A stretch of DNA of 29,352 bases, taken from a virus. A program made the translations under genes and the position numbers. Positions 5,226 through 27,240 of this stretch are shown piece after piece. The stretch covers positions 1 through 29,352 of the IMG/VR virus record IMGVR_UViG_3300032326_002694. One strand, written 5' to 3'. The first letter of the stretch is position 1. Each line of letters begins with the position of its first letter. A model generated the notes under the pieces. It was not told the origin of the DNA. It made no database searches and saw only the letters and a program-made list of their open reading frames with translations.

Positions 5226-5275
5226 GGAGATTGCGGATGTTCCAGGTCCGGTAGAGTTGCGGGCGAGGCCCTCAC

Positions 5276-6109: not shown

Positions 6110-6493
6110 TTACTTCGTGGGCTCGACCGGGCGGACGTATTCGACGCCGATGCCGCCTTTCGTGGAGTAGCTGGCCCCGATGCCGTGTTCAGGATCGAAC
6201 ACGCGGAGGTTGAGGGGTGTGCCGCATGACGACATGCACGCGCAGGCGATGAGCAGCGCGCCCAGGGCGACCCATGCGGGGCAGCGGAATGAGTTGTTAG
6301 GCTTACCATCATCCAGCAGATCGCCGATGCTGCGGACGATGGTGAGCAGCGTGGTGAGACCGCCTGAGATCCAGGCGACGGTGGCGTCATGGTCGCCGGG
6401 CATGAGGGCGGCGATGCCAGAGAGGTCGAGGGCAGACAGCGCCGTGATGATGGCGGCGGTGATGGTGAGGTAGCTGAGCAATTTCGGTTTCAT
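6110..6493 (-). CDS. Putative holin-like membrane protein
   Basis: A 127-aa protein from MKPKLLSYL at 6493. An N-terminal hydrophobic stretch (about residues 6-30) is followed by an amphipathic middle part (ISGGLTTLLTIVRSIGDLLDDG). A second hydrophobic stretch (WVALGALLIACACMSSCG) resembles a lipobox-like end followed by a short soluble tail. It sits directly upstream of the endolysin, so a role in membrane permeabilisation or as a spanin-like component is the likeliest reading. The frame stays open to 6613, but that extension would translate the hairpin-rich segment into an unlikely Pro/Gly sequence. No specific holin family is recognised. Confidence 0.55.
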   Translation of the reverse strand: MKPKLLSYLTITAAIITALSALDLSGIAALMPGDHDATVAWISGGLTTLLTIVRSIGDLLDDGKPNNSFRCPAWVALGALLIACACMSSCGTPLNLRVFDPEHGIGASYSTKGGIGVEYVRPVEPTK

Positions 6494-6535
6494 GGGCGGA
6501 TGCGGGGGCGGATGGAGTTGACCAGGGAGAGGGGT

Positions 6536-6608
6536 GCCCAGACTCGGAATCCCCACTTGTCCTTGGGCACCTCGGGAGAGGTGCTTACTGAGGCAGTCGA
6601 GTCTGGGC
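6536..6608 (-). ncRNA. Structured noncoding segment between lysis genes
   Basis: Perfect 11-bp arms GCCCAGACTCG (6536-6546) and CGAGTCTGGGC (6598-6608) enclose a second perfect hairpin, GCACCTC (6567-6573), GGGA loop, GAGGTGC (6578-6584). The 6494-6639 interval has no plausible gene on either strand. It could be a leader element for the holin-endolysin genes, a processed RNA or a phage DNA site. No known RNA family is recognised, and the strand is assigned only by the direction of the operon. Confidence 0.4.
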
Positions 6609-6639
6609 GGCACATGGGGCGGAATGCTGTTAGAGAAGG

Positions 6640-6900
6640 TTATTCGCCGCGCTCATGGGCGAGGATGCCGGCGGCGGTGGCTTGGTAGGAAAGCTCGCGA
6701 CCTCCCATGGGGTCTTGGATTTCCTTCACCTGACCGAGGGAGAGGAGGAACTTGAGGGCATCCGCGACATCGCCGGCGGTGCAGTCGAATTCCTTTTCGA
6801 ACCGGCGGTGAAGAGTGCCGGTGGAGAGAGCGACGGAAGGGCGCTCGGCAAGGTGGGCGCGGAGAGTGCGGCGGAGGGTTGGTTTATCGGCGTCGTCCAT
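6640..6900 (-). CDS. Small winged-helix-like phage protein
   Basis: An 86-aa protein, MDDADKPTLRRTLRAHLAE, then STGTLHRRFEKEFDCTAGDVADALKFLLSLGQV and a beta-wing-like KEIQDPMGGRELSYQATAAG. The order helix-helix-recognition helix-wing suggests a winged HTH (inference from pattern only). It lies 8 bp downstream of the TM/coiled-coil gene on the same strand. A related small protein is often found near the lysis genes of Mu-like phages. The target and function are unknown. Confidence 0.6.
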   Translation of the reverse strand: MDDADKPTLRRTLRAHLAERPSVALSTGTLHRRFEKEFDCTAGDVADALKFLLSLGQVKEIQDPMGGRELSYQATAAGILAHERGE

Positions 6901-6908
6901 AAAAAATG

Positions 6909-7265
6909 TTAGAGTCCTGGCTGGGTCTTCAGGCGTCCTTCGATGCGGCCCAAACTCCGGTGGATTTCCCGGAGTTCGTTGGACATGGTTGTCGAGACAT
7001 GGCCGACCTCACTGCGGAGGTTAGAGAGTTCGCGGGACACCTCATCGACCGAGGCCTTGGAAGCGTATCGGCTATCGAGCCGCTCATCGGTCTCCGGATC
7101 CGCGCCACGGAGCTTCCGGGCATTCAAGATGGCGGCCATGACCTGGTTCGCGATGATGGCAGCGGCCACCATGCCTCCCAGCCACGTGAATGCGGCGGAG
7201 TAGTCCCCGGCAGAGGGAGCCGGTGGAGTGGTCTGGGCGAAAAACAGAAAGGCCGCATCGATCAT
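6909..7265 (-). CDS. TM plus coiled-coil protein (DUF2730/Mu gp25-like)
   Basis: A 118-aa protein with a single N-terminal membrane span (about residues 26-47, FTWLGGMVAAAIIANQVMAAIL), a basic ARKLR flank, and a long heptad-like region (SKASVDEVSRELSNLRSEVG to LGRIEGRLK). This is the architecture of the DUF2730 proteins of Mu-like phages and of many i-spanins. It sits in the lysis/packaging leader region, matching the place of Mu gp25. The function is not established; participation in lysis is an inference. Confidence 0.6.
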   Translation of the reverse strand: MIDAAFLFFAQTTPPAPSAGDYSAAFTWLGGMVAAAIIANQVMAAILNARKLRGADPETDERLDSRYASKASVDEVSRELSNLRSEVGHVSTTMSNELREIHRSLGRIEGRLKTQPGL

Positions 7266-7331
7266 GCAGGGGCATGATGAGCGGCCTGAGAAATCGCGCC
7301 TCGCGGGATGGCGCGGATGTCACTAGAAGGA

Positions 7332-7727
7332 CTACTTCACCGGAGCGATGGAAAGGATCTTCACCTGGTGGTCGAAGACGGCGACCAGCGACCCATCGGG
7401 CGAGTGCCAGGTCTCTTTCACCACGCGGCCTGGCTGCCGGACCCACTCTCCGGGCTGGGCGTTTTTGAGTTGCTCGGCGATGAGCGTCGGCGGCATGGGC
7501 GAATAGCGCCCCGCCATGATGCTGGGCAGCTTTGCGACGCGGATTTCAGAGGCCTTGCCATCGTCCCCGAAAACAAGGTCGATCCGCATGCCACCGTGCT
7601 CGTGAGTGGTCGAGGTTTCCGTCGAGGAGATCGCCGCACCGTAGCGGGTGGCCGCTTGCTCGCGAGTTTCGCCCAGGCGACCATGGGCCAGCCCGGCCAG
7701 GAGGATGAGTAGGGGGATGGATTTCAT
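7332..7727 (-). CDS. Secreted hypothetical protein
   Basis: A 131-aa protein with a short signal peptide (MKSIPLLILLAGLAHG) and a mature part starting near RLGETREQAATRYG. It contains a beta-rich segment (GGMRIDLVFGDDGKASEIRV) and ends in KILSIAPVK. The ATG at 7727 overlaps the stop of the HsdR-N-like gene, so they are coupled. Because it lies between the immunity gene and lysis genes it could be a lysogenic-conversion or superinfection-exclusion factor, but nothing in the sequence proves it. Confidence 0.6.
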   Translation of the reverse strand: MKSIPLLILLAGLAHGRLGETREQAATRYGAAISSTETSTTHEHGGMRIDLVFGDDGKASEIRVAKLPSIMAGRYSPMPPTLIAEQLKNAQPGEWVRQPGRVVKETWHSPDGSLVAVFDHQVKILSIAPVK

Positions 7728-8575
7728 GGCGCTGGATCAGGATCGCTGGTGCCTGCCTCATCGGTGCCCATTTGTTCACCGGTTTCAGTCGTGACCTCGC
7801 CGGGGGCATCGGGAGCTTTGTCCTTGGCGGCTTTCTTGGCGAGCTTGTTCGCTTGCTTCTTGACCCTGGAGGCTGCATCAGCGGCCTTTTCGCCCTCGGT
7901 GACTTCGCGTTTGAGGATCGACGATTTCAGCATGATGCCCAGCTCTTCCGCTGTGACTTTAATGTCTGGGAAAATCCTCCGCAGTTCACGCCGCAACACC
8001 GCGACGACGGGGTCTTGCATCAGGACCTGAGTGACCGTGTAGGGATTCATTATGGCCGCATGCTGGTGGAAAAGGTTCATCGCATCAGCCAAGACACCTT
8101 CCCGCGAGATCATGAAAAGCTTCCGTTGATCGTCTTCCGCCCGAGGGTTCAACGTAGTGAGATCAAACGAGCAAATTTCCTCGGCATCGATGGGCTGGGC
8201 GAACTTCATGCGGAAGAGCCGCCAGCGGATGGAGTTCGTAAGCATGACCCACTCGATGCCCTGGTTGGCCGCGTAGTTGATCGCCTGGCGGAGGTGCGAC
8301 TCATTCAGATCCACGCCGGCGGCCTTCGCTTCGAGTAAGACCCGGATCTTGCCATCGATGCGAATGGCGAGATCGCAGAAGGTGCCGCGAATTTGCTGTT
8401 CGCTGGTCAGCTCCGTGTATTTGTCGAAGCCGCAAACATCGGCGAGGATGTCCTTGATCAGAGTGACGGTGTCCGCCTCAGAAACATCGCGAGCCCGGTG
8501 GGATTCGGCGATTTTCTGATAGTTCTTGAGAGAGGCGGTGGCCCGGTCGATGACTTTCTTTGGGATGTTGAACAT
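7724..8575 (-). CDS. Stand-alone HsdR-N-like PD-(D/E)XK nuclease-family protein
   Basis: A 283-aa protein starting MFNIPKKVIDRATASLKNYQ at 8575. The N-terminal 150 residues match the type I restriction HsdR N-terminal nuclease fold: TFCDLAI (Asp68), then VLLEAKAAG giving E82-x-K84, preceded by helices ending in ILADVCGFD. There is no helicase part and no HsdM/HsdS neighbour, so it is not a normal type I enzyme. The C-terminus is a Lys/Ala tail (KKQANKLAKKAAKDKAPD). It lies 8 bp downstream of the repressor and so is probably expressed in the lysogen, which would fit a role against other phages (inference). Confidence 0.7.
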   Translation of the reverse strand: MFNIPKKVIDRATASLKNYQKIAESHRARDVSEADTVTLIKDILADVCGFDKYTELTSEQQIRGTFCDLAIRIDGKIRVLLEAKAAGVDLNESHLRQAINYAANQGIEWVMLTNSIRWRLFRMKFAQPIDAEEICSFDLTTLNPRAEDDQRKLFMISREGVLADAMNLFHQHAAIMNPYTVTQVLMQDPVVAVLRRELRRIFPDIKVTAEELGIMLKSSILKREVTEGEKAADAASRVKKQANKLAKKAAKDKAPDAPGEVTTETGEQMGTDEAGTSDPDPAP

Positions 8576-8583
8576 GGGATCTG

Positions 8584-9084
8584 TTAGGTGGATTCGGTTC
8601 GGATGAGCAAGAGCAATGCCCTGGCAGCGGACGCGGCCTCGGCATCCCCGGCGAGGGCTTGGCGGGTGAGGTTTTCCAGGGACTCCGCCCGCTCGGCGGA
8701 GTTCAGCCGGCGAAAGAGCCAGCGAGCGAGTATTTCCATTTCGGCACATGAGGCGGAGGCGGCGGGCGGGGTCATGAGATTTTCACTGCGCACCCGATAG
8801 GGAGGCGGCTCCTCACCCACGTTTCGAGGAGGTCCGGCATCATCGGCAAAGCCGCCGCCGGCAGCGATCACGCGTTCGACGAATTCACCAGGCTGCAATG
8901 ACAACTCGGCGGCGATGCGCTCCGCGAAACCTTCCGTCAGGGGCCGTTTGCCTGTTTCGACCTCAGAAAGGTAGGACGCAGCCACCCCTAGTCGGGCCGC
9001 CAAATCCTTGGCGCTGAGGGACTGCGCCTCGCGGAGATACTTCAGGCCACGACCGTGGTCGCGGAGGGTGCGGAAAACGCTCAC
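8584..9084 (-). CDS. XRE-family HTH repressor (phage immunity, c-type)
   Basis: The HTH is LREAQSLSAKDLAARLGVAA-SYLSEVETGKRPLTEGFAERIAAEL, a classic cro/C1-type motif. The rest is helical with no S24 peptidase domain, so induction by RecA-stimulated self-cleavage is not expected. The start is uncertain: there is no ATG; the GTG at 9084 (166 aa) is my choice, and the frame remains open to a TTG at 9186 (200 aa), which would run through the palindromes. It is divergent from a small HTH gene across a palindrome-rich spacer, the layout of Mu c and ner. A DNA-binding repressor of the early operon is the natural role. Confidence 0.78.
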   Translation of the reverse strand: MSVFRTLRDHGRGLKYLREAQSLSAKDLAARLGVAASYLSEVETGKRPLTEGFAERIAAELSLQPGEFVERVIAAGGGFADDAGPPRNVGEEPPPYRVRSENLMTPPAASASCAEMEILARWLFRRLNSAERAESLENLTRQALAGDAEAASAARALLLLIRTEST

Positions 9085-10505: not shown

Positions 10506-10721
10506 ATGAACCCCACCTGGACACCCGGCGAGCCGCCAAAGGACGGCCAATTCTACGTGGTTTACGCCCGTCTCAAGGACGGGTATGACCGTTGGAATGG
10601 AGCGGACCGCATTCAGTGGGACGACATCGCCGGGGAGTGGGTGGACACCTACGGAATGCCTCTGGTGCAAGGCGAAGGAGTATCCGCCACCATCCTCTTC
10701 TGGATTCCCGTTCCCGTCTAA
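10506..10721 (+). CDS. Small hypothetical protein
   Basis: A 71-aa protein, MNPTWTPGEPPKDGQFYVVY, then ARLKDGYDRWNGADRIQWDDIAGEWVDTYGMP and FWIPVPV. It is aromatic-rich and resembles the small DUF551-like or SH3-like phage proteins that begin with a W-x-P-x-x-G-x-P-P motif (weak similarity by eye). The ATG is 1 base after the ParB-like stop, and its TAA is 5 bases before the transposase ATG, so it is inside the early operon. Confidence 0.65.
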   Translation: MNPTWTPGEPPKDGQFYVVYARLKDGYDRWNGADRIQWDDIAGEWVDTYGMPLVQGEGVSATILFWIPVPV

Positions 10722-10726
10722 CAGCC

Positions 10727-12493
10727 ATGACGAAACAGCAAAAGCTCACCCTTGCGAACCATGCCCGGCAGCTCCTCGCTGCCGGGGGCATGCGCCAGGC
10801 CGATGTCGCCCGCCAGCTCGGGCTCACGCCGGTGCAGCTTACGCGTTTCCTCCGCCTCGATGCCGACTCTCTGGCCCGGCCAGCCGCTGGCGGACGCCCC
10901 GCCAGCGTCCCGCTCACCCCCGGCGACATCGACCTTCTCCGCCGCTATCGGCTCATGAACAAAGTGCATTCCCTGGCGAAGGCCATCGATGCCTTTCTCG
11001 ATGATCCGTCCGCTTCCCCTGAAGCCTATCGCGCCCTTTCCGCGATCATCGCCCGCGCTCATGCCGAGCGACGCCAGCCGAAATGGCCGCTTTCCGTGCG
11101 CAAAGCAGCCGAGCTGACTCCCGCCCTGGAAGCTGAGCTTCGCGGATCGAAGCATGCCTTCGATGTCGCCATGCGTTCCCGCTCCGGAGCCTTCATCCGC
11201 ATCGGGGACCGTGATGTCCCGCTCCGTGCCGGCATGGTGTTTCAGAGCGATGACATGAGCATCAACCAGCCTTATCGGTATTTCGATGCCGCCCTGGGCC
11301 GCGAAACCACCGGACGGCAAACCCTCATCACGCGGGACACGCGCTCGCTCCGCTGGCTCCAGGCGGACCTCTGCGGCCGCGAGCGCGATGCCTATCGCTT
11401 GGAAGACATCGCGGACCACATGCGCGCCGTCGTCGAGGCCAATGGCCTGCCCCTCGCGTGGATCGTCGAGCGTGGCCCCTGGAAGAATACTTTTATCGAC
11501 GGCCTGCGCCTGGAAGACGGCCGCCGCTGGGGCTCACTCTCCGATCTTTTCTTCATTCATCACGCCTTCACCTCCACCGGCAAGAGCGAGGTCGAGGGAG
11601 GATTTGCCGAGCTGCAATCCCTGCTCTCCCACCGTTCCACGGACATCGGCGCGCATCGCGGCGAGTTTGAGAAGGCCACGAAACTTTTCCTCCGCGCTCA
11701 GAAAGGCCATGCCGATGCGCTGCCCTATTTCTGGGCTCTCCCCGAATGCGCTGCCGCCCTGGTGGATGTCATGGAGCGAGACAACCGCGCTCTGAAAAGC
11801 CGCCAGCATTTCAATGGCCGCACCGTAAGCGCCGAGGAACTCTGGGCTGCCGAGCATGTCCGGACGCCTCTGTTAGAAAAGGACCGCTGGTATTTCCTCC
11901 CGGTGAAAAAGACCGCCAGCGTCCGCGGTGGCATCATCGAAGTCCGCGCGGACCACTACGAGCGGAGTTTCCGCTTCGCCGTGCATGGTGCCGTGGGCAT
12001 GCCCTTGCTGCCGAACCTTTACCCGGTCCTCATCGCCTTCCACCCGGCGCGCCCGCATGAAGGCTGCCACGTCTTCAATGCCTGCACCGACCAGCGGAAC
12101 CGCGAGGGCTTTGCCTTTGGCCAGCTCATCGGCGTCGCCGAGTTCGATGCGGATGTCCCGAAATACGTCTTCGATGGTGCCGCGCCCGAGATCGAGACCA
12201 AGCGCAAGCGCAATGCCGCCCTCCGCGCCGAGTATCGCACCATCATGCCGGCCGGTGAAGGCCCGGCCATGCTGAAGAGCGTGGCGCGCGATGGCCTGGG
12301 CAACGCCCTGGAAGTCCAGCGGAACCCCACGGCAGACGCCCCGGCCCCTGCCGAGCCAGCCAGGGAAACCCGCATCGCCGCCCCGGTGCGCGGAGGCCTC
12401 GCCGCCATGCCTCGCGAAGCTGCCGCCCTCTTCGGCTCAGACCGCGCCGCTGCCCTGGCTGCCCTCGAATCCGCTGCCGAGCAGCACCTCTAA
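10727..12493 (+). CDS. MuA-like DDE transposase
   Basis: A 588-aa protein (MuA is 663). The N-terminus has an HTH (GMRQADVARQLGLTPVQLTRFL, 21-42) for DNA binding. The catalytic RNase-H core runs from GMVFQSDDMSINQPY (Asp175/176) through WIVERGPWKNTFIDG (Glu248 where most transposases have DNG) to GKSEVEGGFAELQSLL (Glu288 or Glu290). A beta-barrel and tail follow (YERSFRFAVHGAVGMPLLPN). It would cut and join phage ends for integration and replicative transposition, with the MuB-like ATPase as target selector. The ATG at 10727 is 5 bases after the preceding stop. Confidence 0.88.
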   Translation: MTKQQKLTLANHARQLLAAGGMRQADVARQLGLTPVQLTRFLRLDADSLARPAAGGRPASVPLTPGDIDLLRRYRLMNKVHSLAKAIDAFLDDPSASPEAYRALSAIIARAHAERRQPKWPLSVRKAAELTPALEAELRGSKHAFDVAMRSRSGAFIRIGDRDVPLRAGMVFQSDDMSINQPYRYFDAALGRETTGRQTLITRDTRSLRWLQADLCGRERDAYRLEDIADHMRAVVEANGLPLAWIVERGPWKNTFIDGLRLEDGRRWGSLSDLFFIHHAFTSTGKSEVEGGFAELQSLLSHRSTDIGAHRGEFEKATKLFLRAQKGHADALPYFWALPECAAALVDVMERDNRALKSRQHFNGRTVSAEELWAAEHVRTPLLEKDRWYFLPVKKTASVRGGIIEVRADHYERSFRFAVHGAVGMPLLPNLYPVLIAFHPARPHEGCHVFNACTDQRNREGFAFGQLIGVAEFDADVPKYVFDGAAPEIETKRKRNAALRAEYRTIMPAGEGPAMLKSVARDGLGNALEVQRNPTADAPAPAEPARETRIAAPVRGGLAAMPREAAALFGSDRAAALAALESAAEQHL

Positions 12494-18066: not shown

Positions 18067-18279
18067 ATGCCACGCCATTTCCAATCTTACGCTGAACTCC
18101 GCGCTCACGCACTCGATATCAAGATCCAGGCCATCGAGTTCTACAAAGCCAAGGATACCTTGTTCCCCGACCAGCCTCGCCGCGAAAGGTTTAGAAATTG
18201 CATCATGCTGGTGGCGGACATCTGGTTTCGCCTGGGACCGCAGTCTTTTGAAGACGGCACCATTATCTATCTTCCATGA
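18067..18279 (+). CDS. Small hypothetical protein
   Basis: A 70-aa protein, MPRHFQSYAELRAHALDIKI, followed by FYKAKDTLFPDQPRRERFRN and a C-terminal SFEDGTIIYLP. It begins 3 bases after the nucleotidyltransferase stop (GAGATATG start context, also seen at 25518) and overlaps the MuF-like gene start by 4 bases. No family is recognised. Tight coupling with the nucleotidyltransferase suggests they act together, but no function can be assigned. Confidence 0.58.
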   Translation: MPRHFQSYAELRAHALDIKIQAIEFYKAKDTLFPDQPRRERFRNCIMLVADIWFRLGPQSFEDGTIIYLP

Positions 18280-19877
18280 AAGCCACTGCCACCATCACCC
18301 CCATGCCTCATGCCGAGGGCGCGAAGTTCTTGCGGAACAAACCCGCCATCACCCGCGCCATCTTCGACACCTTGCCGAATGAACTTCGCGCCCGCGCCCT
18401 GGTCATCACCGGCATCGAGGCACTGGACGTGGTGGCCCGCATCCGCGACCGCATCGCCGAGCTGCCCCTGGGCGCGGACTATGAGGACATCAAGGCCGAC
18501 ATCCTCGCCGAAATGTCCCCATTCCTCATCACCAGCACCGATCCAGACGAGCGCGCCAAACAAACCTCCGCCGCCCGCCGCCGTGCTGAAATGCTCCTGC
18601 GCATGCACGGCTGGCAGACCTACGCCCGGACTCAGCATGCCCTCATGGAGGCTCATGCCGATGCCTTCCCCTACCGCCAGTATCTGAGCAGCGAGGACGG
18701 CCGCGTCCGCCCCACTCACGAAGCTCTCAACCGCAAGATCCTCCCGGCCAACCATCCATTTTGGGAAAACCACACTCCGCCCTGGGAATTCGGCTGCCGC
18801 TGCGATTGCGTGCCGCTCACCCAAGACGAGGTCGATGAGATCCGCGCCGCCGAAAGCAGCAAGCCCCCCGAGGACAAGGAAGTCCTGCCCGATGCCCAGC
18901 TCCGCGAGATCGAGCTAAACCAGCGCATCGTCAAACCCGGTGGCCAGGGCTTCCTCGACCTCCGCACCCCGCGTGAGCGGGACGGCGAGGGCTATGAGTG
19001 GCGACCAGGAGACGATGTCTTGCCCATCGATCAGATCCTTTCCCGCTTCGGCCCTGCCGAGCGTGCCACCTGGGAAGACTACGCCGCCCGCCAGCGCCTC
19101 GACGATGGCCGGACCCTCCTCGATTGGCTCCTTGCTGGCCGCGCCCCCACGCCTGCCAATGTCCCCGCCGCCCCCGCTCCCCAGGCACCGACACCGGCGG
19201 CCGCGCCCGCGCCCGCTCCCGCGCCCCGTGTCCCTGCACCGGCACCGCCGTCCGCCGCCGCGCCTGCCCAGCCGGCCAACCGCAAAGCCCCCGTGAGCGA
19301 TGCCCTCAAGCTCAAGATCCGGGACAAATCCCAGGTCAAAATCGCGCTCGATGCCATCGACAGCGTCCACGACGATGGAGTCCTCCCCGAGATCCCCCTG
19401 GATGGCCAGCCCGGCAGCGACCCCGGCACCCTCGGGGCCTACACCCGGCAAGGCCCGGCAGCGGTGAAAATCAGCGTCCGCTCCAAGGGCATGCGAGCCG
19501 CCCTTACCACCGTCCATGAGGTCGGTCATTTCCTCGATCACCAGGCCTTTGGCAACGTAGGCCTCATGTCCAGCGAGATCCGGGGCACGGACATCTGGGA
19601 CATCGTGGAAATCGCCATCGGCACGCCCACCGTGCAGGAGATCCCGAACTACTACGGCCCCCGTTCGGACTACACCTCCTACCTCCTCCGCCGGCGCGAA
19701 ATCTGGGCACGCGCCTATGCTCAATACATCGCCGAGGAATCAGGCGATGCCACCTTGCTTTCCCAGCTCAATGCCACCCTCCTGGGTGCCCACAACCTCA
19801 CGCAGTGGCCTGCCCAGGAGTTTGCTCCCATCCGCCAGGCCATCACGGATCACTTCAAAAAGCTCAACTGGAAATGA
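18276..19877 (+). CDS. MuF-type head morphogenesis protein fused to a zincin (HEVGH) domain
   Basis: A 533-aa protein in three parts. Residues 1-200 are the MuF minor head domain, with GRVRPTHEALNRKILPANHP, WENHTPPWEFGCRCDC at 163-178, as in Mu gpF. Residues about 290-335 are a Pro/Ala linker. Residues about 340-533 contain TTVHEVGHFLDH (HExxH at 414-418) and, 57 residues on, REIWARAYAQYIAE, whose Glu475 could be the third zinc ligand of a gluzincin. MuF C-terminal extensions of this kind are known as polymorphic toxins carried in virions. The zincin might instead process head proteins. A small acidic gene overlaps its stop. Confidence 0.8.
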   Translation: MKATATITPMPHAEGAKFLRNKPAITRAIFDTLPNELRARALVITGIEALDVVARIRDRIAELPLGADYEDIKADILAEMSPFLITSTDPDERAKQTSAARRRAEMLLRMHGWQTYARTQHALMEAHADAFPYRQYLSSEDGRVRPTHEALNRKILPANHPFWENHTPPWEFGCRCDCVPLTQDEVDEIRAAESSKPPEDKEVLPDAQLREIELNQRIVKPGGQGFLDLRTPRERDGEGYEWRPGDDVLPIDQILSRFGPAERATWEDYAARQRLDDGRTLLDWLLAGRAPTPANVPAAPAPQAPTPAAAPAPAPAPRVPAPAPPSAAAPAQPANRKAPVSDALKLKIRDKSQVKIALDAIDSVHDDGVLPEIPLDGQPGSDPGTLGAYTRQGPAAVKISVRSKGMRAALTTVHEVGHFLDHQAFGNVGLMSSEIRGTDIWDIVEIAIGTPTVQEIPNYYGPRSDYTSYLLRRREIWARAYAQYIAEESGDATLLSQLNATLLGAHNLTQWPAQEFAPIRQAITDHFKKLNWK

Positions 19878-20038
19878 CCATCCGCACCATCCTCGAAGCC
19901 TTCTCCAAAGGCGAAACCACCCGCGCCCAAGCCCGCACCGATCTCATGAGCCTCGGCATGACCGGCGAGGAAGCGGACCACACTCTTTTCATCGAGTCCG
20001 GCGGCGATGATGTCATCGACCTCGATGAGCAACCCTAA
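19874..20038 (+). CDS. Small acidic protein coupled to the MuF-zincin gene
   Basis: A 54-aa protein (MTIRTILEAFSKGETTRAQA, RTDLMSLGMTGEEADHTLF, IESGGDDVIDLDEQP). Its ATG overlaps the MuF-zincin stop as ATGA. Size, acidity and coupling are what one would expect of an immunity protein or a virion chaperone, but no family is recognised and both roles are inference. Confidence 0.6.
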   Translation: MTIRTILEAFSKGETTRAQARTDLMSLGMTGEEADHTLFIESGGDDVIDLDEQP

Positions 20039-20051
20039 CCAATCCACCAAC

Positions 20052-20216
20052 ATGGACGAACCCGACATCGACGGCTGGAACGAGGAAGAGGATGAGGACT
20101 ACTGCGACGACACCGTGGACATGACCGATTGCGGAATGCACTACGATGATGGCTTCAACTTTGCCTGCGATTTAATTGGGTCAGAGCAATGCGAGTTCTG
20201 CCCAAATCGCCGATGA
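20052..20216 (+). CDS. Small acidic Cys-rich protein (putative zinc-binding)
   Basis: A 54-aa protein, MDEPDIDGWNEEEDEDYCDD, then TVDMTDCGMHYDDGFNFACD and SEQCEFCPNRR. Five cysteines and a histidine (C-x-x-C end) suggest a small metal-binding fold. An alternative ATG at 20025 would add nine residues. The stop overlaps the following ATG at 20213. Confidence 0.55.
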   Translation: MDEPDIDGWNEEEDEDYCDDTVDMTDCGMHYDDGFNFACDLIGSEQCEFCPNRR

Positions 20217-20476
20217 ATTATTACAAGAACCAGAGCATGACATCCATCCTCGAACTCGCCCCGCTCGCGAAACTTCACTGGCTCATCGCCGTCATGGCCC
20301 TCGTGCTCGGTTTTCTGGCCATTCTGCTCGCGACATCCATCGCCGCCTTCTTCGTGCTGGACCGCATCATCGGCACCTGGCTGGAACGAACGAAAGAAGT
20401 CTGGGCATTCATCGACTACCTCCGCCATCGGCAGGACTTCAAGGCATGGAAAAAAGAAAGGAAATCCACCCCATGA
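20213..20476 (+). CDS. Single-span membrane protein
   Basis: An 87-aa protein. Residues about 18-52 (LHWLIAVMALVLGFLAILLA, then TSIAAFFVL) are hydrophobic, long enough for one or two spans, followed by a charged amphipathic tail (RHRQDFKAWKKERKS). The ATG at 20213 overlaps the preceding stop; a second ATG at 20237 is possible. It could serve lysis or membrane export, but the function is unknown. Confidence 0.55.
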   Translation: MNYYKNQSMTSILELAPLAKLHWLIAVMALVLGFLAILLATSIAAFFVLDRIIGTWLERTKEVWAFIDYLRHRQDFKAWKKERKSTP

Positions 20477-20550
20477 AAACCGCCTGCCTCATCATCATGA
20501 CGGTCGGCCCCTGGATGGCCGCTTATGCCTTTGGCCGCTACTTCTCATGA
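20473..20550 (+). CDS. Very small membrane peptide
   Basis: A 25-codon frame, MKTACLIIMTVGPWMAAYAF, ending GRYFS. The ATG overlaps the previous stop and the TGA overlaps the methyltransferase ATG, both as ATGA, a pattern used throughout this operon. It is hydrophobic enough to span a membrane. Translation is plausible but unproven. Confidence 0.4.
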   Translation: MKTACLIIMTVGPWMAAYAFGRYFS

Positions 20551-21395
20551 ATCACGGACTCATCCCCTATGTGGGCGGCAAACACCGCTTGGCCAAGCGC
20601 CTGGTCGAGCTGTGCGCCGTGGAACCGGCAAACACCTTCATCGATGTCTTCGGCGGATCCGCCGCCGTCACCCTCGCCGCTGGTGATCGCTTCGGGAAGC
20701 TCATCTACAATGATGCCGATGGCGACCTCGTGAACCTTTTCCGCGTGGTCTCCGTGCCGGACTCCCGCGCCCGGCTCTTCCGCACCCTCCGCTGGCTTCC
20801 ACCGTCCCGCCGTGTTTTCGAGGAGGACTATGAGCAATACGTCGCCGGCGGGTTTTCGTTCCATGCCGTCGCGGATCCCATCGAGCGCGCCCGCAAGACT
20901 TTCTATCGCCACTGCTTCGCCTTTGGCGGCAAAGTGCGCTCTGGCGGCTTCGCCATCAGCCCCGGCGATCGCGAGCGGATCAAGGAAGTCGCGCGCTATC
21001 GAAACACTCTCCAAAAGCTCGCCCGGGTGGGGAATCTCTTTCGCCAGGTCATGATCGAGAACCTCCACTACTCCGAACTCATCCGCATCCACGGCCGCCG
21101 CCGCGAAGCGGTATTGTTCATCGATCCTCCTTACTTTGGCTCGGAAGGATATTACTCGCGGACCTTCGGCGCCGGCGATCATGCGTTCCTGGCATCCCAA
21201 CTTGCTGCAGTCCCCGCCCGCGTCGTCTGCACCTATTACGATTGCCCCCAGGTCCGCGCTCTCTACGCCGGGCCGCAGTGGAAATGGATACCGCTCCAAG
21301 CCACAAAAAACAGTGCCTTCACGCGGGGGAACAAAGTCATCAGCACTGAAACCGTCATCATCAAAGAAGCCGCGCAAGAAAGGACAAAGATATGA
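20547..21395 (+). CDS. Dam-like (D12 class) adenine-N6 DNA methyltransferase
   Basis: A 282-aa protein. SAM-binding motif I is FIDVFGGSAAV (31-41), followed by IYNDADGDLVNLF, and the catalytic motif IV is FIDPPYFGSEGYY (DPPY at 193-196). The intervening target-recognition part includes FYRHCFAFGGKVRSGGF. This is the D12 (EcoDam/T4 Dam) fold that methylates adenine in a short DNA site, often GATC. No restriction enzyme is adjacent, so it is an orphan phage methylase that could protect phage DNA or affect regulation. Confidence 0.88.
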   Translation: MNHGLIPYVGGKHRLAKRLVELCAVEPANTFIDVFGGSAAVTLAAGDRFGKLIYNDADGDLVNLFRVVSVPDSRARLFRTLRWLPPSRRVFEEDYEQYVAGGFSFHAVADPIERARKTFYRHCFAFGGKVRSGGFAISPGDRERIKEVARYRNTLQKLARVGNLFRQVMIENLHYSELIRIHGRRREAVLFIDPPYFGSEGYYSRTFGAGDHAFLASQLAAVPARVVCTYYDCPQVRALYAGPQWKWIPLQATKNSAFTRGNKVISTETVIIKEAAQERTKI

Positions 21396-21748
21396 AATTG
21401 AAAAGCAGATTGGCGGGTTCACTGCAGCGACTTCTTCTGTGGATTTTGGGGCATCGCGAGCGGCGGCAAATGCAAGTCATCCTCGGCGGCATGGCGGCGG
21501 TCCACGCTGACAACGCCTCCCGCATGGTGGCGGATCAAGGAGGGGACATGCCGAAATGCAAGCCGAAGCTCGGCACGCACTACTGCGAACGATGCGGGCG
21601 CGATGTGACCACGAACAACGCCAGAAGCTCTGCGTGTCCCTCGATCCCGCCAGAGCGCCGATGGAAGATGACTTACCCGCCGCATTGTCCACGGAACGAT
21701 CCAGCGATGGCGCGGCGCGCTGGAGATCGAAATCAAATTGACGGCTGA
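21392..21748 (+). CDS. Hypothetical protein with zinc-ribbon-like motif
   Basis: A 118-aa frame starting MKLKSRLAGSLQRLLLWILG, overlapping the methylase stop. It contains HYCERCGRDV (C-x-x-C) and a second pair further on. The first 30 residues are basic and amphipathic. Base composition turns less GC-rich around here. A real gene is likely but not certain. Confidence 0.5.
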   Translation: MKLKSRLAGSLQRLLLWILGHRERRQMQVILGGMAAVHADNASRMVADQGGDMPKCKPKLGTHYCERCGRDVTTNNARSSACPSIPPERRWKMTYPPHCPRNDPAMARRAGDRNQIDG

Positions 21749-21809
21749 TCGCCGTCGTCCATCCGCGTCTTGTTCATCCTTGCCCGATTCACCGAAAACC
21801 AACCGGAAA

Positions 21810-22379
21810 ATGACAACGACACTTGTGCGAAAGACATGGGGAGAACGCGAAGGCGTTACGCTCGAACTGCTGGAAAGATTCACGAAGGCCGGAGATCCGC
21901 GCTTCGGGAAAGTGCAATGCGTGTGGAGCTATCGCGGCGACTGCACCGAGACTGGAGACCGTCGCCTGCGTGCAACGATGCCCGAGGGGGCCTATGAGCA
22001 CTACCACTGGAACACCGTGGCATGCAATGGCGGAGTGCTCGTCTGCGTGCCTCGCTGGAAGTCGAGCGAGGAGCGAGGCGAAAGCGTTGGACTCCGCGCA
22101 CCCTACTGGTGGGCAATGTCAGAGATCGCCGCCGCCGAACCAGACCCGGCACTCGGAATCCGCCCGGCCAATGCGAAAGAGATCGCGGACGTGGTGCCGC
22201 AAACGCAAGAGATCCTCTCCGCGCTCCCCGGCCTGGAATACATGCGGATCGCCAAGGTGGGATTCTACAGCACCGCCAGCAAGGGCCGGAAGTTCGACAA
22301 GGCTCCGCAGGACGTGCGCTTCTTCCGCTTTGCTGCGGGATACGGGTGCGTCTCAATCAGGAAGGACGACGCCGAATGA
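21810..22379 (+). CDS. Hypothetical protein (cargo region)
   Basis: A 189-aa protein from the ATG at 21810 (MTTTLVRKTWGEREGVTLEL), with FTKAGDPRFGKVQCVWSYRG, YWWAMSEIAAAEPDPALGIR and YGCVSIRKDDAE. The frame is open to a TTG at 21738, but the extension is low-complexity. No domain is recognised; Trp-rich segments suggest a globular protein. It lies between phage head genes and looks like accessory DNA. Confidence 0.55.
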   Translation: MTTTLVRKTWGEREGVTLELLERFTKAGDPRFGKVQCVWSYRGDCTETGDRRLRATMPEGAYEHYHWNTVACNGGVLVCVPRWKSSEERGESVGLRAPYWWAMSEIAAAEPDPALGIRPANAKEIADVVPQTQEILSALPGLEYMRIAKVGFYSTASKGRKFDKAPQDVRFFRFAAGYGCVSIRKDDAE

Positions 22380-22438
22380 TTCCTTGGATGAACGCGCGGG
22401 ACCTCGGCCCCGCAACCCCTGGAAGGAGCGAAGCCTAA
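22376..22438 (+). CDS. Possible 20-aa peptide
   Basis: The ATG at 22376 overlaps the previous TGA (ATGA) and opens MIPWMNARDLGPATPGRSEA. The coding pattern is weak, and this stretch holds one arm of an 18-bp inverted repeat (22391-22408). It may simply be a spacer. Confidence 0.25.
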   Translation: MIPWMNARDLGPATPGRSEA

Positions 22439-22613
22439 CAAATCTATGAATACGATCGAAATCGAAGCAGTTAAAACCTACCTGAGAGAGTCGCTTAATG
22501 CCCTTGAGCGACTGGAAGGGGTGGAGGGTGCGGAGCGTTCTCTTGTTACGATGACGCGCAGCGGAGGAGGACAAGAGAACGCGGAGCAGCGCAGCGCCGA
22601 GGTCCCGCGCGTT
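22391..22613. repeat. Nested inverted repeats in cargo region
   Basis: An 18-bp perfect pair, AACGCGCGGGACCTCGGC at 22391-22408 and its complement at 22596-22613, surrounds a 12-bp perfect pair, GCGTTCTCTTGT at 22535-22546 and ACAAGAGAACGC at 22571-22582. The complement CCGGCGTAACG near 23155 is also related to CGTTACGCCGG at 22610-22620. They could form a large hairpin in RNA or mark a mobile sequence. Confidence 0.6.
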
Positions 22614-22799
22614 ACGCCGGGGGAGGCGGAGGCAGCATTTCGGGACCTTGCCGCTTTTTGGTTCGACATAGCGAAGGCCCATCGCCGCGAAGCGCCTCTA
22701 TGGAGGCACGCGAAAAACAATCATGAAATCACCAACCAACTCCGCCGCGTTGCCTCCCATGGCTGGTTCTTCGCCTCTCCGGGCGGTGATCCACATTGA
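22446..22799 (+). CDS. Hypothetical protein (cargo region)
   Basis: A 117-aa protein: MNTIEIEAVKTYLRESLNAL, ERLEGVEGAERSLVTM, then a Gly/Ser/Gln-rich part encoded by the inverted-repeat segment, and FRDLAAFWFDIAKAHRREAP. It shares 77 bp with the next gene in another frame. The middle looks like an insertion into an otherwise helical protein. Confidence 0.45.
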   Translation: MNTIEIEAVKTYLRESLNALERLEGVEGAERSLVTMTRSGGGQENAEQRSAEVPRVTPGEAEAAFRDLAAFWFDIAKAHRREAPLWRHAKNNHEITNQLRRVASHGWFFASPGGDPH

Positions 22800-22944
22800 G
22801 GAAATGCCTGGCTCATGGTGGCTGACTCTTGAGTGTGGACACTATGCGGCCCGGCCCAAGCAGAGAGCCAATTTCTTCAAGAACCCGTCGCTCCCACGCC
22901 TCGCTCCAAAGCGCGTGCGGTGTATCGACTGTGCGAAGAACTGA
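22723..22944 (+). CDS. Small zinc-ribbon-like protein
   Basis: A 73-aa protein with WWLTLECGHYAARPKQRA and PKRVRCIDCAKN. The C-x-H...C-x-x-C arrangement is common in small phage and bacterial zinc-binding proteins. It starts inside the preceding gene; a start at 22804 (MPGSWWLTL) would avoid most of that overlap. Confidence 0.55.
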   Translation: MKSPTNSAALPPMAGSSPLRAVIHIEEMPGSWWLTLECGHYAARPKQRANFFKNPSLPRLAPKRVRCIDCAKN

Positions 22945-23042
22945 TGAGATTGTTCACGCCAAAGAGCCCGATTGGCACGCAAGAGCCGTACGCACCAGAG
23001 GCCGAGCGGACGTGTTTTGGCTCTGCGCTCAAAGTGTTCTAG
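22944..23042 (+). CDS. Small hypothetical peptide
   Basis: A 32-aa frame, MRLFTPKSPIGTQEPYAPEA, ending GSALKVF. Its ATG overlaps the previous TGA (TGATG). Little can be said beyond the coupling; it may be a spacer frame. Confidence 0.35.
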   Translation: MRLFTPKSPIGTQEPYAPEAERTCFGSALKVF

Positions 23043-23072
23043 CGCTGCTGCCGGAGCCGGACAGTGGAGCGG

Positions 23073-23252
23073 ATGAAAGCCCTGCCGCGCGCCCCGATTC
23101 TGTCGCCTCCACCGAAGCCCAAACGTGCCCCCATACCTGTGATGAGCGGAGCGTCCGGCGTAACGCCGAAAGTGAGGGATCGCCGCCCTCACGGCTCGAA
23201 TTCAAACAGGAGGCTTCCGGCGGTTCCCTCCACTGACTTGTTCGATTTATGA
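23073..23252 (+). CDS. Small Pro/Arg-rich hypothetical protein
   Basis: A 59-aa frame, MKALPRAPILSPPPKPKRAP, continuing with RDRRPHGSNSNRRLPAVPST. GGAG lies just before the ATG, and the stop overlaps the next ATG (ATGA). The composition points to a disordered, basic peptide. A GTG start at 23064 is also possible. Confidence 0.4.
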   Translation: MKALPRAPILSPPPKPKRAPIPVMSGASGVTPKVRDRRPHGSNSNRRLPAVPSTDLFDL

Positions 23253-23515
23253 CGACTGACGAAAAACGCGCGATAGACAGAATGAAACGGGCAATCCGCG
23301 ATGCTCATAAGCTAGGAATCCGCCTTGCCGGGATGGATGGCTCGCTACTCTATGCAACTGCCAGCGCATTCCGAAAAGGCCAAGCGATGGCCGATGATGC
23401 CGAGCAGCGACATGGTAGCTGCTATTCCGCTGTCGCTCACGCTTGCCAGTGTGGCGACATCGACGGAGCAGGAATCCTCGACAACAAATGCTATGAGGAC
23501 TCCGGTGGATATTAA
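23249..23515 (+). CDS. Hypothetical protein (cargo region)
   Basis: An 88-aa protein, MTTDEKRAIDRMKRAIRDAH, with KLGIRLAGMDGSLLYATASA and a Cys-containing end (HGSCYSAVAHACQCGD). The helical N-terminus and clean overlap with the gene before it support translation. No family is recognised. Confidence 0.52.
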   Translation: MTTDEKRAIDRMKRAIRDAHKLGIRLAGMDGSLLYATASAFRKGQAMADDAEQRHGSCYSAVAHACQCGDIDGAGILDNKCYEDSGGY

Positions 23516-23554
23516 ATCGAACAGCAATTCAACCAACCCAACCTGATTTAACTC

Positions 23555-23623
23555 ATGTCCGCCTACAAGCACCCGCCGGCGGACGATCACACACGCTGGA
23601 CCGGCCGTGATTTGCTGGTATGA
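23555..23623 (+). CDS. Possible 22-aa peptide
   Basis: The ATG at 23555 opens MSAYKHPPADDHTRWTGRDL, ending LV before a TGA at 23621. It lies in the gap between two cargo genes and has GC-rich codon use like the phage. There is no other support. Confidence 0.25.
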   Translation: MSAYKHPPADDHTRWTGRDLLV

Positions 23624-23648
23624 CTCTCTTGCCAACCCCGTCAGACTC

Positions 23649-23849
23649 ATGTCTCGCCACTACATCTCCCTCGTTGACCCGCATTCCCTGGCTGTGCTTA
23701 CCGCCATCCTCGCCACCCAGGCCCGCCAGGCCGGGGGGGAAATCCGCTTCCGTGGCATCGTCGATGCCGACACATCCGTCGAAGTCTATTATGACGAAAG
23801 CACCATGGAATACGTCGTGAGAGCCTCCCCGCCCGCTCAAGGCGATTGA
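23649..23849 (+). CDS. Small hypothetical protein before gpG
   Basis: A 66-aa protein, MSRHYISLVDPHSLAVLTAI, then LATQARQAGGEIRFRGIVDA and EVYYDESTMEYVVRASPP. It looks like a small alpha/beta protein. It starts at the ATG at 23649 and stops 8 bases before gpG. The high-GC phage codon use resumes here, so it marks the right edge of the cargo patch. Confidence 0.6.
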   Translation: MSRHYISLVDPHSLAVLTAILATQARQAGGEIRFRGIVDADTSVEVYYDESTMEYVVRASPPAQGD

Positions 23850-23857
23850 CCCTCCCC

Positions 23858-24379
23858 ATGCAACTCAACATCCGCAAAGTCTCCGACTCGGTCACTCCTC
23901 AGCTCGCCACCCTCTATCGGCGAGCGAAGGACAAGTCGGGACTGCATGCGGCCATCGGCCTGGGTTTGCAATCCCTGGCCAAGCGAGCCTTTAACGATCC
24001 CTCCAAACGCCCCGCCGCGTGGGCACCCAAGGCGGATGGCACCGCATCCCGCCTGCGGAAATCCGGCACGCTCGCCAAAAGCATCCGGGCCACGACATCC
24101 TCGGCCAGCATCGTCATCGGCTCAGATCGGCACTATGCGGCCATCCACCAACTCGGCGGCCGCACCAAGCCCCACATCATCCGGCCGAAAAAAGGCAAGG
24201 CCCTCGCGTGGCCCGGTGCCGCGCATCCCGTGGCCATGGTCCGCCACCCCGGATCTAACATCCCGGCCCGGCCTTACCTGCCCTTCTACTCCTCCGGCCA
24301 ACCCACGCCGGCCGCTGGCCGCGTGGTGGCCAGTGTCCTGCGCGCGAAGCTCATGCGCGGCATAGGCGGCACACCCTGA
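23858..24379 (+). CDS. Mu gpG-like virion morphogenesis protein
   Basis: A 173-aa protein. The diagnostic part is SGTLAKSIRATTSSASIVIG, then SDRHYAAIHQLGG, HIIRPKKGKALAWP and PARPYLPF. It matches the virion morphogenesis family (Mu gpG) with YAAIHQ-G-G and the PARP-[FY]-L signature near the C-terminus. This protein acts in head/tail completion. The ATG at 23858 follows a frame that is open to a TTG at 23846. Downstream lies gpI, as in Mu. Confidence 0.85.
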   Translation: MQLNIRKVSDSVTPQLATLYRRAKDKSGLHAAIGLGLQSLAKRAFNDPSKRPAAWAPKADGTASRLRKSGTLAKSIRATTSSASIVIGSDRHYAAIHQLGGRTKPHIIRPKKGKALAWPGAAHPVAMVRHPGSNIPARPYLPFYSSGQPTPAAGRVVASVLRAKLMRGIGGTP

Positions 24380-24456
24380 AAAAAGGGTTGTCACCCGCGC
24401 CATGCCCTGTGGCGGCTTTGGCATATCTCGGCATGCTGGCGACCTCGTTGTTGCTC

Positions 24457-25479
24457 ATGACCAAGCCCGCCGCCATTCCTTCGCTCGTGTTCCTTTCCGC
24501 GCATGCGGTGGGCGTGGCGGCGGGTGATGGCGTCAAAACCGGAGCCATCCCCCTGCCCGAGGAAATCGTCATCTGCCCCTGGGGAGAATCCCGCGACCTG
24601 GATGGCGAGCCCGTCATCGTCAACGAAACCACCCTTGCCCAGCTCGCCGCGAATCAGAGCCTCTATGGCTTCGATGAAATCGCCATGGACTTCGAGCATG
24701 GCACCGTGCCGAAAACGGCTGCCGATGGAAACCCGGTGAAACCCCAAGAGCCCGTCATCATCGCCGGGATGGGCAGCCTCTCTGTCCGCGAGGGCGTGGG
24801 GATCATCTACCACCCCGTCTCCTGGACTCGCGAGGGTGAGCCCGCCTACACCGGCCGGCATTTCCGCGACCTGTCTCCCACCGTCAGCAAGAACGAAAAG
24901 GGAGAGGTCATCTTCGTCCACTCCGTGGCCCTCTGCCGGAATGGCCAGATCCGCAACCTGCACACGTTCTCTGCTCCCTCTCCCGCAACGAAACCGACCC
25001 CGACCCCGAACATGGATACCCCTGACTACCGCGAACTTCTCCGCGCCAAACTCGCCCTCCCGGAAGACGCCACCGATGAGCAGCTCATCGCCGGCATCGA
25101 GACCCTTTCCGTGCCTGCCCCGGAAAAGAAAGAGGAGGAAACTCCCGCCGCCCCGCCCGTCACTGCCATGGCCGCGCCTGACACCCCTGACCTGGTCGCC
25201 CTCGCCGCGCGGCAGGACCAGCTCGAAAAGGACGTGCTCATCGCCCAGGCCACCGCTGCCGGGAAGATCATCCCGCTCAGCGCGGAGGCCGTGAAGCTCA
25301 CTCCGCTCAGCGTCGTCCGCGAGCTGGTGGCCACCGCCACTCCTGGAGTGGTCCCCACCACGCCCACGCCCGCGGCCAAGGAGACGCCCGCCGTCAAGGC
25401 ACTCTCCGCCGAGGAAAAAGTCGTGGCCCAGCGCATGGGCTACAGCGACGCCCGCTGGCGCGAACTCAACCCCGCCTGA
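24457..25479 (+). CDS. Mu gpI-like head maturation protease
   Basis: About 340 aa with the Mu I protease pattern: EIAMDFEHGTVPK (the DFEH motif), IIAGMGSLSVREGVGIIYHP, VSWTREGEPAYTGRHFRDLSPTV and GEVIFVHSVALC. It cleaves scaffold and head proteins during prohead maturation. The C-terminal third is charged and low in complexity, typical of a fused scaffold. The start is uncertain: I use the ATG at 24457; ATG at 24433 and a TTG at 24388 are alternatives. An internal ATG at 25012 may start a nested scaffold. Confidence 0.85.
   Translation: MTKPAAIPSLVFLSAHAVGVAAGDGVKTGAIPLPEEIVICPWGESRDLDGEPVIVNETTLAQLAANQSLYGFDEIAMDFEHGTVPKTAADGNPVKPQEPVIIAGMGSLSVREGVGIIYHPVSWTREGEPAYTGRHFRDLSPTVSKNEKGEVIFVHSVALCRNGQIRNLHTFSAPSPATKPTPTPNMDTPDYRELLRAKLALPEDATDEQLIAGIETLSVPAPEKKEEETPAAPPVTAMAAPDTPDLVALAARQDQLEKDVLIAQATAAGKIIPLSAEAVKLTPLSVVRELVATATPGVVPTTPTPAAKETPAVKALSAEEKVVAQRMGYSDARWRELNPA
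25012..25479 (+). CDS. Possible nested scaffold (Mu Z-like) in frame with gpI
   Basis: The internal ATG at 25012 (MDTPDYRELLRAKLALPEDA) opens the last 155 residues of gpI in the same frame, after a Pro/Thr linker. In Mu a scaffold protein Z is made from such an internal start within I. The segment is acidic and helical like a scaffold. No Shine-Dalgarno is visible, so the internal start is only a possibility. Confidence 0.4.
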   Translation: MDTPDYRELLRAKLALPEDATDEQLIAGIETLSVPAPEKKEEETPAAPPVTAMAAPDTPDLVALAARQDQLEKDVLIAQATAAGKIIPLSAEAVKLTPLSVVRELVATATPGVVPTTPTPAAKETPAVKALSAEEKVVAQRMGYSDARWRELNPA

Positions 25480-25517
25480 TCTCCGCCCCGCCTCCCCACC
25501 TCTGAACCTTCTGAGAT

Positions 25518-26273
25518 ATGTCAAACACCGTTTACCAAATGTCCTCGAATGATGGCTCCTTCACCGGACCCATCCCTGTGAAGGCTGCCGTGCTCATCGC
25601 TGCCGGTGCCTTCTTCGCCCTCGATTCCGCCGGGCGCGCCGTGCCTGCGGATGACGCCACTGCCCAGGTCATCGGCGGCAGCGCCTCGACCGAGGCGGAC
25701 AACACCGCCGCTGGCGCTGCCGATGGCGACGTCAAGGTCTATGGTGAGTTGATCACCTACACCTGCGACAACTCCGCCACGAACCCGCTCACGGATGCGG
25801 ACATCCTGAAGCCCTGCTACCTGGAAGCGGAAAACGTCGTCCGCCGCGACCGCACCGCGAACCAGCCCTGCGCCGGGATCTTCCTGGGCTTCGATGGCGG
25901 CTATCCCATGGTCCGCATGGCTCCGGGCCATGCCGGTCTCCCTGTGGGTGGCCATGATGCCGATGGTGCCACCCTCCTTGCCCACCAGTCCGGCGGGGCG
26001 TTCTCCAATCTCGGCGCGGCCGGCGCGGCGACCTTTGTGCTGCCGCCCGCCCGCCCTGGCCTGGAATTCCACTTCGCCGTGAAGGTCGCCCAGCAACTGC
26101 GCATCGACCCCGCCGGCACCGAGACCATCGAGGTGCCTTCCACCGCTGCCCAGGGCGCGGCTGGCAAGTATCTGTGGGCGGATGCCATCGGCGAGTTCAT
26201 CCACATCCGCTGCCTCGTGGCCGGGGCATGGGCCGTCGTTTCTTCCGCCGGCACCTGGACCATCGAAGCCTGA
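25518..26273 (+). CDS. Head decoration-like structural protein
   Basis: A 251-aa protein between gpI and gpT. The N-terminal half (KAAVLIAAGAFFALDSAGRA, DATAQVIGGSASTEADNTAA, DVKVYGELITYTCDN) shows the beta-rich pattern of phage capsid cement proteins. The C-terminal half (FVLPPARPGLEFHFAVKVAQ, LRIDPAGTETI) resembles a jelly-roll-like virion domain. The start ATG at 25518 has the GAGATATG context. Confidence 0.65.
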   Translation: MSNTVYQMSSNDGSFTGPIPVKAAVLIAAGAFFALDSAGRAVPADDATAQVIGGSASTEADNTAAGAADGDVKVYGELITYTCDNSATNPLTDADILKPCYLEAENVVRRDRTANQPCAGIFLGFDGGYPMVRMAPGHAGLPVGGHDADGATLLAHQSGGAFSNLGAAGAATFVLPPARPGLEFHFAVKVAQQLRIDPAGTETIEVPSTAAQGAAGKYLWADAIGEFIHIRCLVAGAWAVVSSAGTWTIEA

Positions 26274-26313
26274 TCCACCCGCACCCACCGCAACCTAACA
26301 GCAATATCCGATT

Positions 26314-27240
26314 ATGCTCACCTCCGCCCGTCTCAATGCCGTCTATCTCGGCTTCAACACCGCCTTCAAGGAAGGCCTCCAAGGCGAGGCCACTCCCCTG
26401 GAGGACCTCTGCCTGGTCACGAACTCCACCGCCGAAACCGAGGCCTATGAATGGCTGAACACCATCGGCGGCATGGAGGCCTTCACGGGCACCGGCAAGT
26501 TCGATGACCTCACCAGCTCCGGCTACGAGATCAAGAACCGCGAGTATCAACGCGGGGTCTCGGTCAAGGCCATCAACATCATTCGCGACCGCGAGGGTAT
26601 CTACAAACCATCGTTCCAGATGCTCGGCGCGCGCGCCCAGCAACACAAGAGCGAGCTGGTGGGCGAGCTGCTCATCGCCGGCTTCATCCAGAAGGACTAC
26701 ACCGGGAAGTTCTTCTTCGATACCGACAAGAAGCACTCGCCAAACGTGGAAGGTGGCAAGGCCAAGAGCCCGACCTTCTCCAACAAGGGGACCAAGAAAA
26801 TCAGCACGGCCAACTACGAGGCCGCCCTGCTGAACATCAAGGGACGCCTGGATCGGGAAGGCAAGCCGCTGCGCCTGGGCAAGAAGCTCAAGCTCATCGT
26901 GGGCACCGCTGCTTGGGTCACCGCTCGGGACATCTTGGAACTCGAAACCCTCGCCGCTGGGGGCAAAAACCCGAATTACCGGTCCGCCGAGCTGGTGTTC
27001 ATGCCCGAGATCGATGCCAGCGCGAACCCGCACGCCTGGTTCCTGGTCGAAACCGGCATGCCGGTGAAAGCTCTCATCTATCAGGATGAAATCCCCGTCC
27101 GCCTGGAAAGCCAGACGGAAGTCACCAGCGACACCGTGTTCGAGAAGAAGGTCTTCCGCTACCAGGCTTACGCCAGCCGTGGCGCGGGCTACGGCCTGCC
27201 CCAGCTCGCCTACGGCAGCACCGGCGCGGACGCTGCCTGA
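26314..27240 (+). CDS. Mu gpT-like major head protein
   Basis: A 308-aa protein matching the Mu T family: MLTSARLNAVYLGFNTAFKE, YEWLNTIGGMEAFTG, VSVKAINIIRDREGIYKPSF, LGARAQQHKSELVGELLIAG, ALIYQDEIPVRLESQTE and VFEKKVFRYQAYASRGAGYG. It forms the capsid shell. A strong intrinsic terminator follows the stop. It sits in the Mu order after I and before gp36. Confidence 0.9.
   Translation: MLTSARLNAVYLGFNTAFKEGLQGEATPLEDLCLVTNSTAETEAYEWLNTIGGMEAFTGTGKFDDLTSSGYEIKNREYQRGVSVKAINIIRDREGIYKPSFQMLGARAQQHKSELVGELLIAGFIQKDYTGKFFFDTDKKHSPNVEGGKAKSPTFSNKGTKKISTANYEAALLNIKGRLDREGKPLRLGKKLKLIVGTAAWVTARDILELETLAAGGKNPNYRSAELVFMPEIDASANPHAWFLVETGMPVKALIYQDEIPVRLESQTEVTSDTVFEKKVFRYQAYASRGAGYGLPQLAYGSTGADAA

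Follow-up and report, generated by a model that had tools for sequence, protein, structure and literature searches.

Known MuF toxins and the locus analysed

Polymorphic toxins with an N-terminal MuF domain, those carrying a metallopeptidase included, and the small open reading frames (ORFs) downstream of them were established by Jamet et al. 2017 (PMC5576092). A metallopeptidase domain is present in 20% of the reported MuF toxins, and a small ORF follows 89.4% of the MuF toxin genes compared with 25.5% of the short MuF genes (PMC5576092). In the Apk2/IapK pair, a MuF toxin is neutralised by a small binding protein (PMC12226406). Among the domains of phage polyvalent proteins zincins are the most frequent, and a role in processing or on the host has been proposed for them (Iyer et al. 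2017, PMC5512222). Here we describe a gene pair in the IMG/VR virus record IMGVR_UViG_3300032326_002694 (positions 1 to 29,352, the whole of this 29,352-nucleotide stretch being termed the window), in which a MuF head protein bears a C-terminal zincin and its gene overlaps a gene for an acidic protein of 54 residues. Probably the two genes form a polymorphic toxin (effector) cassette of the MuF type, the small one encoding a dedicated antidote or inhibitor, and the phage that carries them is Mu-like and probably temperate.

With the described MuF polymorphic toxins (Jamet 2017; Apk2/IapK) the pair shares the N-terminal MuF domain, the variable C-terminal domain, the small downstream ORF and the setting among phage head genes, and since most of the testable features of these toxins are found in it, we count it as a member of the group. 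It differs in that a metallopeptidase family, its invariant residues and a specific partner family can be defined. Toxicity and neutralisation have been demonstrated for Apk2/IapK and are predicted for the pair in the window. The initial annotation had presented it as an interesting variant, which overstates its novelty as metallopeptidase MuF toxins had already been reported (PMC5576092). Toxins of this kind have been described before (Jamet 2017; Iyer 2017); what looks new is the partner family and the way it is tied to this zincin.

The metallopeptidases (MPTases) of polyvalent proteins and LPD1 (PMC5512222; PF18796) share with the window's domain the HExxH motif, an Asp three residues after the motif and a C-terminal helix with a Glu. 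The window protein is a simple MuF-zincin, however, and not a giant multidomain protein. The conserved His of the polyvalent MPTases lies at the end of strand 2, whereas the invariant His365 of the window's protein is placed by the model between a helix and strand 2.

Architecture of the MuF-zincin gene

The initial annotation described a MuF domain joined by a Pro/Ala linker to a C-terminal metallopeptidase-like domain, and this make-up was confirmed by a Phage_Mu_F match (PF04233, residues 92-177, E-value 2.2e-11, better than the Pfam cut-off) and by the translation. Residues 5-212 also match PHROG 220 'minor head protein and DNA pilot' (E 1.6e-29). The MuF module ends approximately at the stop position of relatives that have no C-terminal domain; these short relatives end in a WxWL segment, and the linker of the window's protein starts right after the same segment. 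The C-terminal domain was matched by PHROG 4529 'minor head protein and DNA pilot' (E 2e-4) and PHROG 4415 'peptidase' (E 1.6e-6), but these entries give no functional description of the domain or of its partner. The positions of all features are listed in Table 1.

Conservation and predicted fold of the zincin domain

Relatives of the zincin were collected from two Akkermansia phages, from 174 IMG/VR stretches (80 loci retained), and from ten bacterial genome loci, several of them in Verrucomicrobiota or Lentisphaerae. Ten residues (H365, H414, E415, G417, H418, Y469, E475, R479, Y481 and Q483) are invariant in the resulting alignment of about 90 rows, some of which are near-copies, and D421 is present in 95% of the rows. 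The same set of core residues was obtained from the 76-row alignment left after removal of near-copies. The zinc site initially considered plausible, HExxH at 414-418 with Glu475, is thus made up of residues that are both present and invariant. A chance occurrence of HExxH was ruled out by the invariance of the motif across the rows. The spacing between Tyr469 and Glu475 resembles that of the Tyr/Glu pair of M34 peptidases.

Fold prediction of the C-terminal 190 residues, proposed as a check in the initial annotation, gave an AlphaFold2 model with a mean predicted local distance difference test (pLDDT) score of 95.2 and a predicted template modelling (pTM) score of 0.92, resembling an M34-type zincin. 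The best VIA-align matches were PPEP-1/Zmp1 (Z 9.4) and the catalytic domain of anthrax lethal factor (Z 9.1) over 140-160 residues, both of them M34-type zincins. A Z of about 9 exceeds that of unrelated rows, yet it lies near the level of common arrangements, and the E-value from Foldseek alone is about 0.2; no PDB structure was matched by Foldseek at E < 0.001. The combination of HExxH, Tyr and Glu is shared with these M34-type proteins and the predicted fold resembles theirs, but sequence identity is 11-15%, no match was found at the sequence level and the delivery part is unrelated. Against the sequences of solved structures, the zincin profile found weak matches only, around the HExxH helix of metzincins. 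Four viral structures were matched at E < 0.001, and since all four are 'phage head morphogenesis' proteins the MuF-zincin arrangement is widespread; their records assign no function to it. The C-terminal domain is a conserved and apparently active zincin, and its predicted catalytic residues are intact.

A weak match to PF18796 LPD1 was found over residues 467-530 (E 0.014 in the window; E<=0.01 in 25 of 74 members), a stretch that includes the third zinc ligand. The HExxH motif is of the HEW type in the proteins of all four strong LPD1 matches (L190-L193). They come from genomes of the phylum of the Haloferula genome G001, of the Verrucomicrobiota type. It is possible that LPD1, whose function is unknown, represents the C-terminal half of a zincin. 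The window's zincin is sporadic in this phylum, with matches at E<=0.001 in 7 of 289 genomes, of which two are marginal.

The 54-residue partner gene

The overlapping gene encodes a protein with an isoelectric point (pI) of 4.1. A profile was grown from the small ORFs of the window and of a second locus (L003), which are 39% identical, and its homologues lie directly 3' of zincin genes, nearly all with a start 1-19 nucleotides ahead of the point where the stop codon ends. A second partner type was also recognised, with an 81% probability of relation to the first by profile comparison. The partner family has 56 distinct sequences. With both types counted, a member is present at 56 of the 78 distinct zincin loci and at none of the 67 MuF relatives with another or no C-terminal domain (Fisher P 3e-22, uncorrected for relatedness). 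Within the clade sampled by the MuF part alone (see below), members were found at all ten zincin loci and at none of the 54 others, 41 of which have other C-terminal domains while 13 are short.

Among the 31,554 ORFs of all collected loci, which were gathered around a zincin or a MuF gene and so do not sample genomes at large, 73 of 76 partner matches lie directly 3' of a window-type zincin. Two of the three exceptions are duplicate records of the usual arrangement and the third is L048. In this locus a partner of the second type (8548-8904, minus strand) is convergent with the zincin gene and overlaps its end; an inversion or an assembly error is possible. The coupling of an acidic 54-residue gene to the zincin, as initially proposed, is upheld by its ATGA overlap, its charge, its conservation and its specificity for the zincin class.

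In its model, the 54-residue protein consists of three helices and a flexible acidic tail (pLDDT 85.6), and Asp46 in the GD-V/I tail is nearly invariant. The best match among PDB folds did not exceed Z 4.2, and tblastn of the small ORF against phage records returned matches at chance level only. No natural fusion of zincin and partner was seen among the loci inspected, and no description of a partner of this zincin was found in the open-access literature, subscription papers lying outside the search.

Exchange of C-terminal cassettes within one MuF clade

As a single-sequence query against IMG/VR the MuF domain found no relatives, but an alignment of MuF domains used as the query did, and a clade of 64 distinct loci was sampled by the MuF part alone. 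Ten of these loci carry the window's zincin, 41 have other C-terminal domains and 13 are without an extension, this short class being approximate as L138 resembles a frameshifted copy of L139 and the MuF domain of L121 is nearly identical to that of L115. The MuF domains of L138 and L139 are identical, and in L138 a separate ORF downstream holds the zincin-type region, as a frameshift would produce. At least eleven C-terminal classes occur in the clade (the window's zincin and ten further ones), or none at all, and the relatives therefore do not share one identical C-terminal domain; the toxin-like variability that the initial annotation proposed to look for among related phages was indeed observed. 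Several of the ten further classes are other HExxH families, and one class has a Kinase-PolyVal match.

On the maximum-likelihood MuF tree the C-terminal class changes at least 35 times. The window-type zincin accounts for eight changes, at least six of which are forced by strongly supported branches, and the second nearest MuF relative of the window by path (L097) bears a different zincin. The zincin and its partner gene thus appear to be transferred between phages as one unit.

Small acidic ORFs were found 3' of 69 of the 78 zincin genes and 33 of the 41 genes with other extensions, and of none of the 13 short MuF genes. By C-terminal class, the small-gene families comprise ten zincin-A, five c4 and four zincin-C, with three families for zincin-B; two families are mixed, each uniting different HExxH classes. 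C-terminal classes other than the window's zincin mostly have small-gene families of their own. This class-specific pairing within a single MuF clade provides a ready list of candidate toxin/antidote pairs.

A bacterial cassette array

Orphan cassettes were observed in a Verrucomicrobiota-type bacterial chromosome (G194:C19; L188, reverse complement 350-8728) from a genome of the same phylum as G001, where a zincin-A, a zincin-B-like unit and a fragment stand behind an ORF of 1,515 residues. This large ORF ends in a zincin-B-type domain and is followed on its 3' side by a zincin-A ORF with a 69-residue downstream ORF, then by a zincin-B-like ORF with its own small ORF of 101 residues, and finally by the fragment. 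The orphan units contain DNA segments 91-97% identical to a part of the large gene that precedes its C-terminal domain; such repeated segments would permit recombination. This layout, in which 450 bases are masked, resembles the displaced cassettes of polymorphic toxin loci. The 1,515-residue protein has no significant Pfam match and is not an established toxin, and the 69-residue ORF has no clear homology to the window's partner.

Proposed function and alternative explanations

The steps that we infer for this cassette are packaging, injection, proteolysis, toxicity and neutralisation by the 54-residue protein. The MuF part would build the protein into the phage head, and the M34-like zinc protease borne on the linker would reach its bacterial target protein either by delivery along with the DNA or by release from virions, and would cleave it. 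The acidic three-helix protein, made in the same cell through translational coupling, would act as an immunity protein or inhibitor that blocks the protease, its probable binding site being the active site. The two move between phages as a unit, and the zincin also occurs in a toxin-like bacterial array. The candidate polymorphic toxin with a partner, as the initial annotation had it, gains support at the level of genomic comparison from the variability of the cassettes and from the class-specific small gene. More tentatively, and with somewhat less than even confidence, we suggest that the 54-residue family is an undescribed antidote family in which Asp46 plugs the zinc site of M34-like proteases borne on phage heads, and that Mu-like phages carry exchangeable protease/antidote cassettes which also circulate in bacterial toxin arrays.

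A toxin with a dedicated antidote is not favoured by all of our observations. No recognisable member of the partner family is present at 22 of the 78 zincin loci, and the Akkermansia phages also have no overlapping gene of this family. The three-helix motif of the partner resembles common helical pieces of phage proteins as well, and some relatives are near-copies or of shared ancestry, so that the counts are partly non-independent. The need for an antidote against a virion protein that is made late, in a cell near lysis, is also hard to explain.

Alternatively, the protein may be an injected polyvalent effector that helps the phage, its zincin either cutting host proteins of defence or regulation or, once inside the cell, releasing itself from MuF, with the small protein serving as a chaperone or inhibitor that keeps it inactive during head assembly; an inhibitor needed in assembly only would account for the pairing with a head gene. 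The prevalence of zincins in phage polyvalent proteins (PMC5512222) and the Kinase-PolyVal domain in one class of the same MuF clade are in line with such an effector. We nevertheless consider it unlikely, as the displaced-cassette array in bacteria and the class-specific small genes are typical of toxin/immunity loci and not of phage assembly factors. A role in head structure or maturation, in which the zincin would process head proteins or MuF and the small protein would be an ordinary assembly factor, is suggested by the position of the zincin within a head protein upstream of other head genes. However, among the relatives that share this MuF, 13 lack a C-terminal domain and 41 bear other ones, which makes the zincin dispensable for head building. 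The phage also has a head-maturation protease of its own (Table 1). The separate protease and the close relatives without a zincin domain disfavour this role, which we regard as highly improbable.

The two genes might, on the other hand, co-travel as linked cargo without interacting, the small gene having an unrelated role. Moron genes of phages can be co-inherited, and the interaction of zincin and partner is a prediction. We give this explanation very little weight, as the linkage survives at least six strongly supported cassette changes on the MuF tree, the distance between the zincin stop and the start of the small gene is almost always no more than about 20 nucleotides, and this position is taken by other small families in other C-terminal classes. 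If the pair is indeed a toxin/antidote cassette, virions would deliver a swappable protease against which a tiny dedicated inhibitor shields the producer, phage heads would be tied to the polymorphic-toxin arms race, and the 54-residue protein would be a compact inhibitor directly testable against an M34-like protease.

Gene neighbourhood

The window is a virus record with a Mu-like gene set, in which the MuF-zincin gene lies upstream of the other head genes. Possible signs of a temperate lifestyle are the Mu-like portal, the gpT major head protein, the helix-turn-helix (HTH) repressor-like gene and the transposition AAA gene; the putative transposase ORF (10592-12493) had no Pfam match.

Table 1. 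Positions of the annotated features in the window.
Feature	Position	Strand	Remarks
MuF-zincin ORF	18276-19877	+	533 residues
MuF head-protein module, residues 1-288	18276..19139	+	Phage_Mu_F match; end '..TLLDWLLAG'
Pro/Ala-rich linker, residues ~289-340	19140..19295	+	Translation
C-terminal M34-like zincin metallopeptidase domain (predicted), residues 341-533	19296..19874	+	Homologues, AlphaFold2 and VIA-align
HEVGH motif, residues 414-418	19515..19529	+	Predicted two zinc ligands and general base; H, E, G and H invariant
Tyr469 to Glu475	19680..19700	+	Predicted catalytic Tyr and third zinc ligand; both invariant
54-residue acidic partner gene	19874-20038	+	Predicted antidote/inhibitor or chaperone; ATGA overlap with MuF-zincin stop
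MuF, gpG, protease and major head genes	within 18276-27240	+	
Head-maturation protease	24388-25479		phrog_328, E 1.4e-26
Portal_Mu and terminase genes	within 1173-4986	-	Present in window
HTH repressor-like gene, ParB-like gene, transposition AAA protein gene			Present in window
Phage_tail_S (gpG-like) gene, gpT-like major head protein gene			Present in window

The portal and terminase genes lie on the opposite strand to the MuF, gpG, protease and major head genes, with the early region between them, which is an unusual order for a Mu-like phage. A match to HSDR_N, the N-terminus of the type I restriction enzyme R subunit, was observed in the protein encoded at 7724-8749 on the minus strand, adjoining the repressor-like gene.
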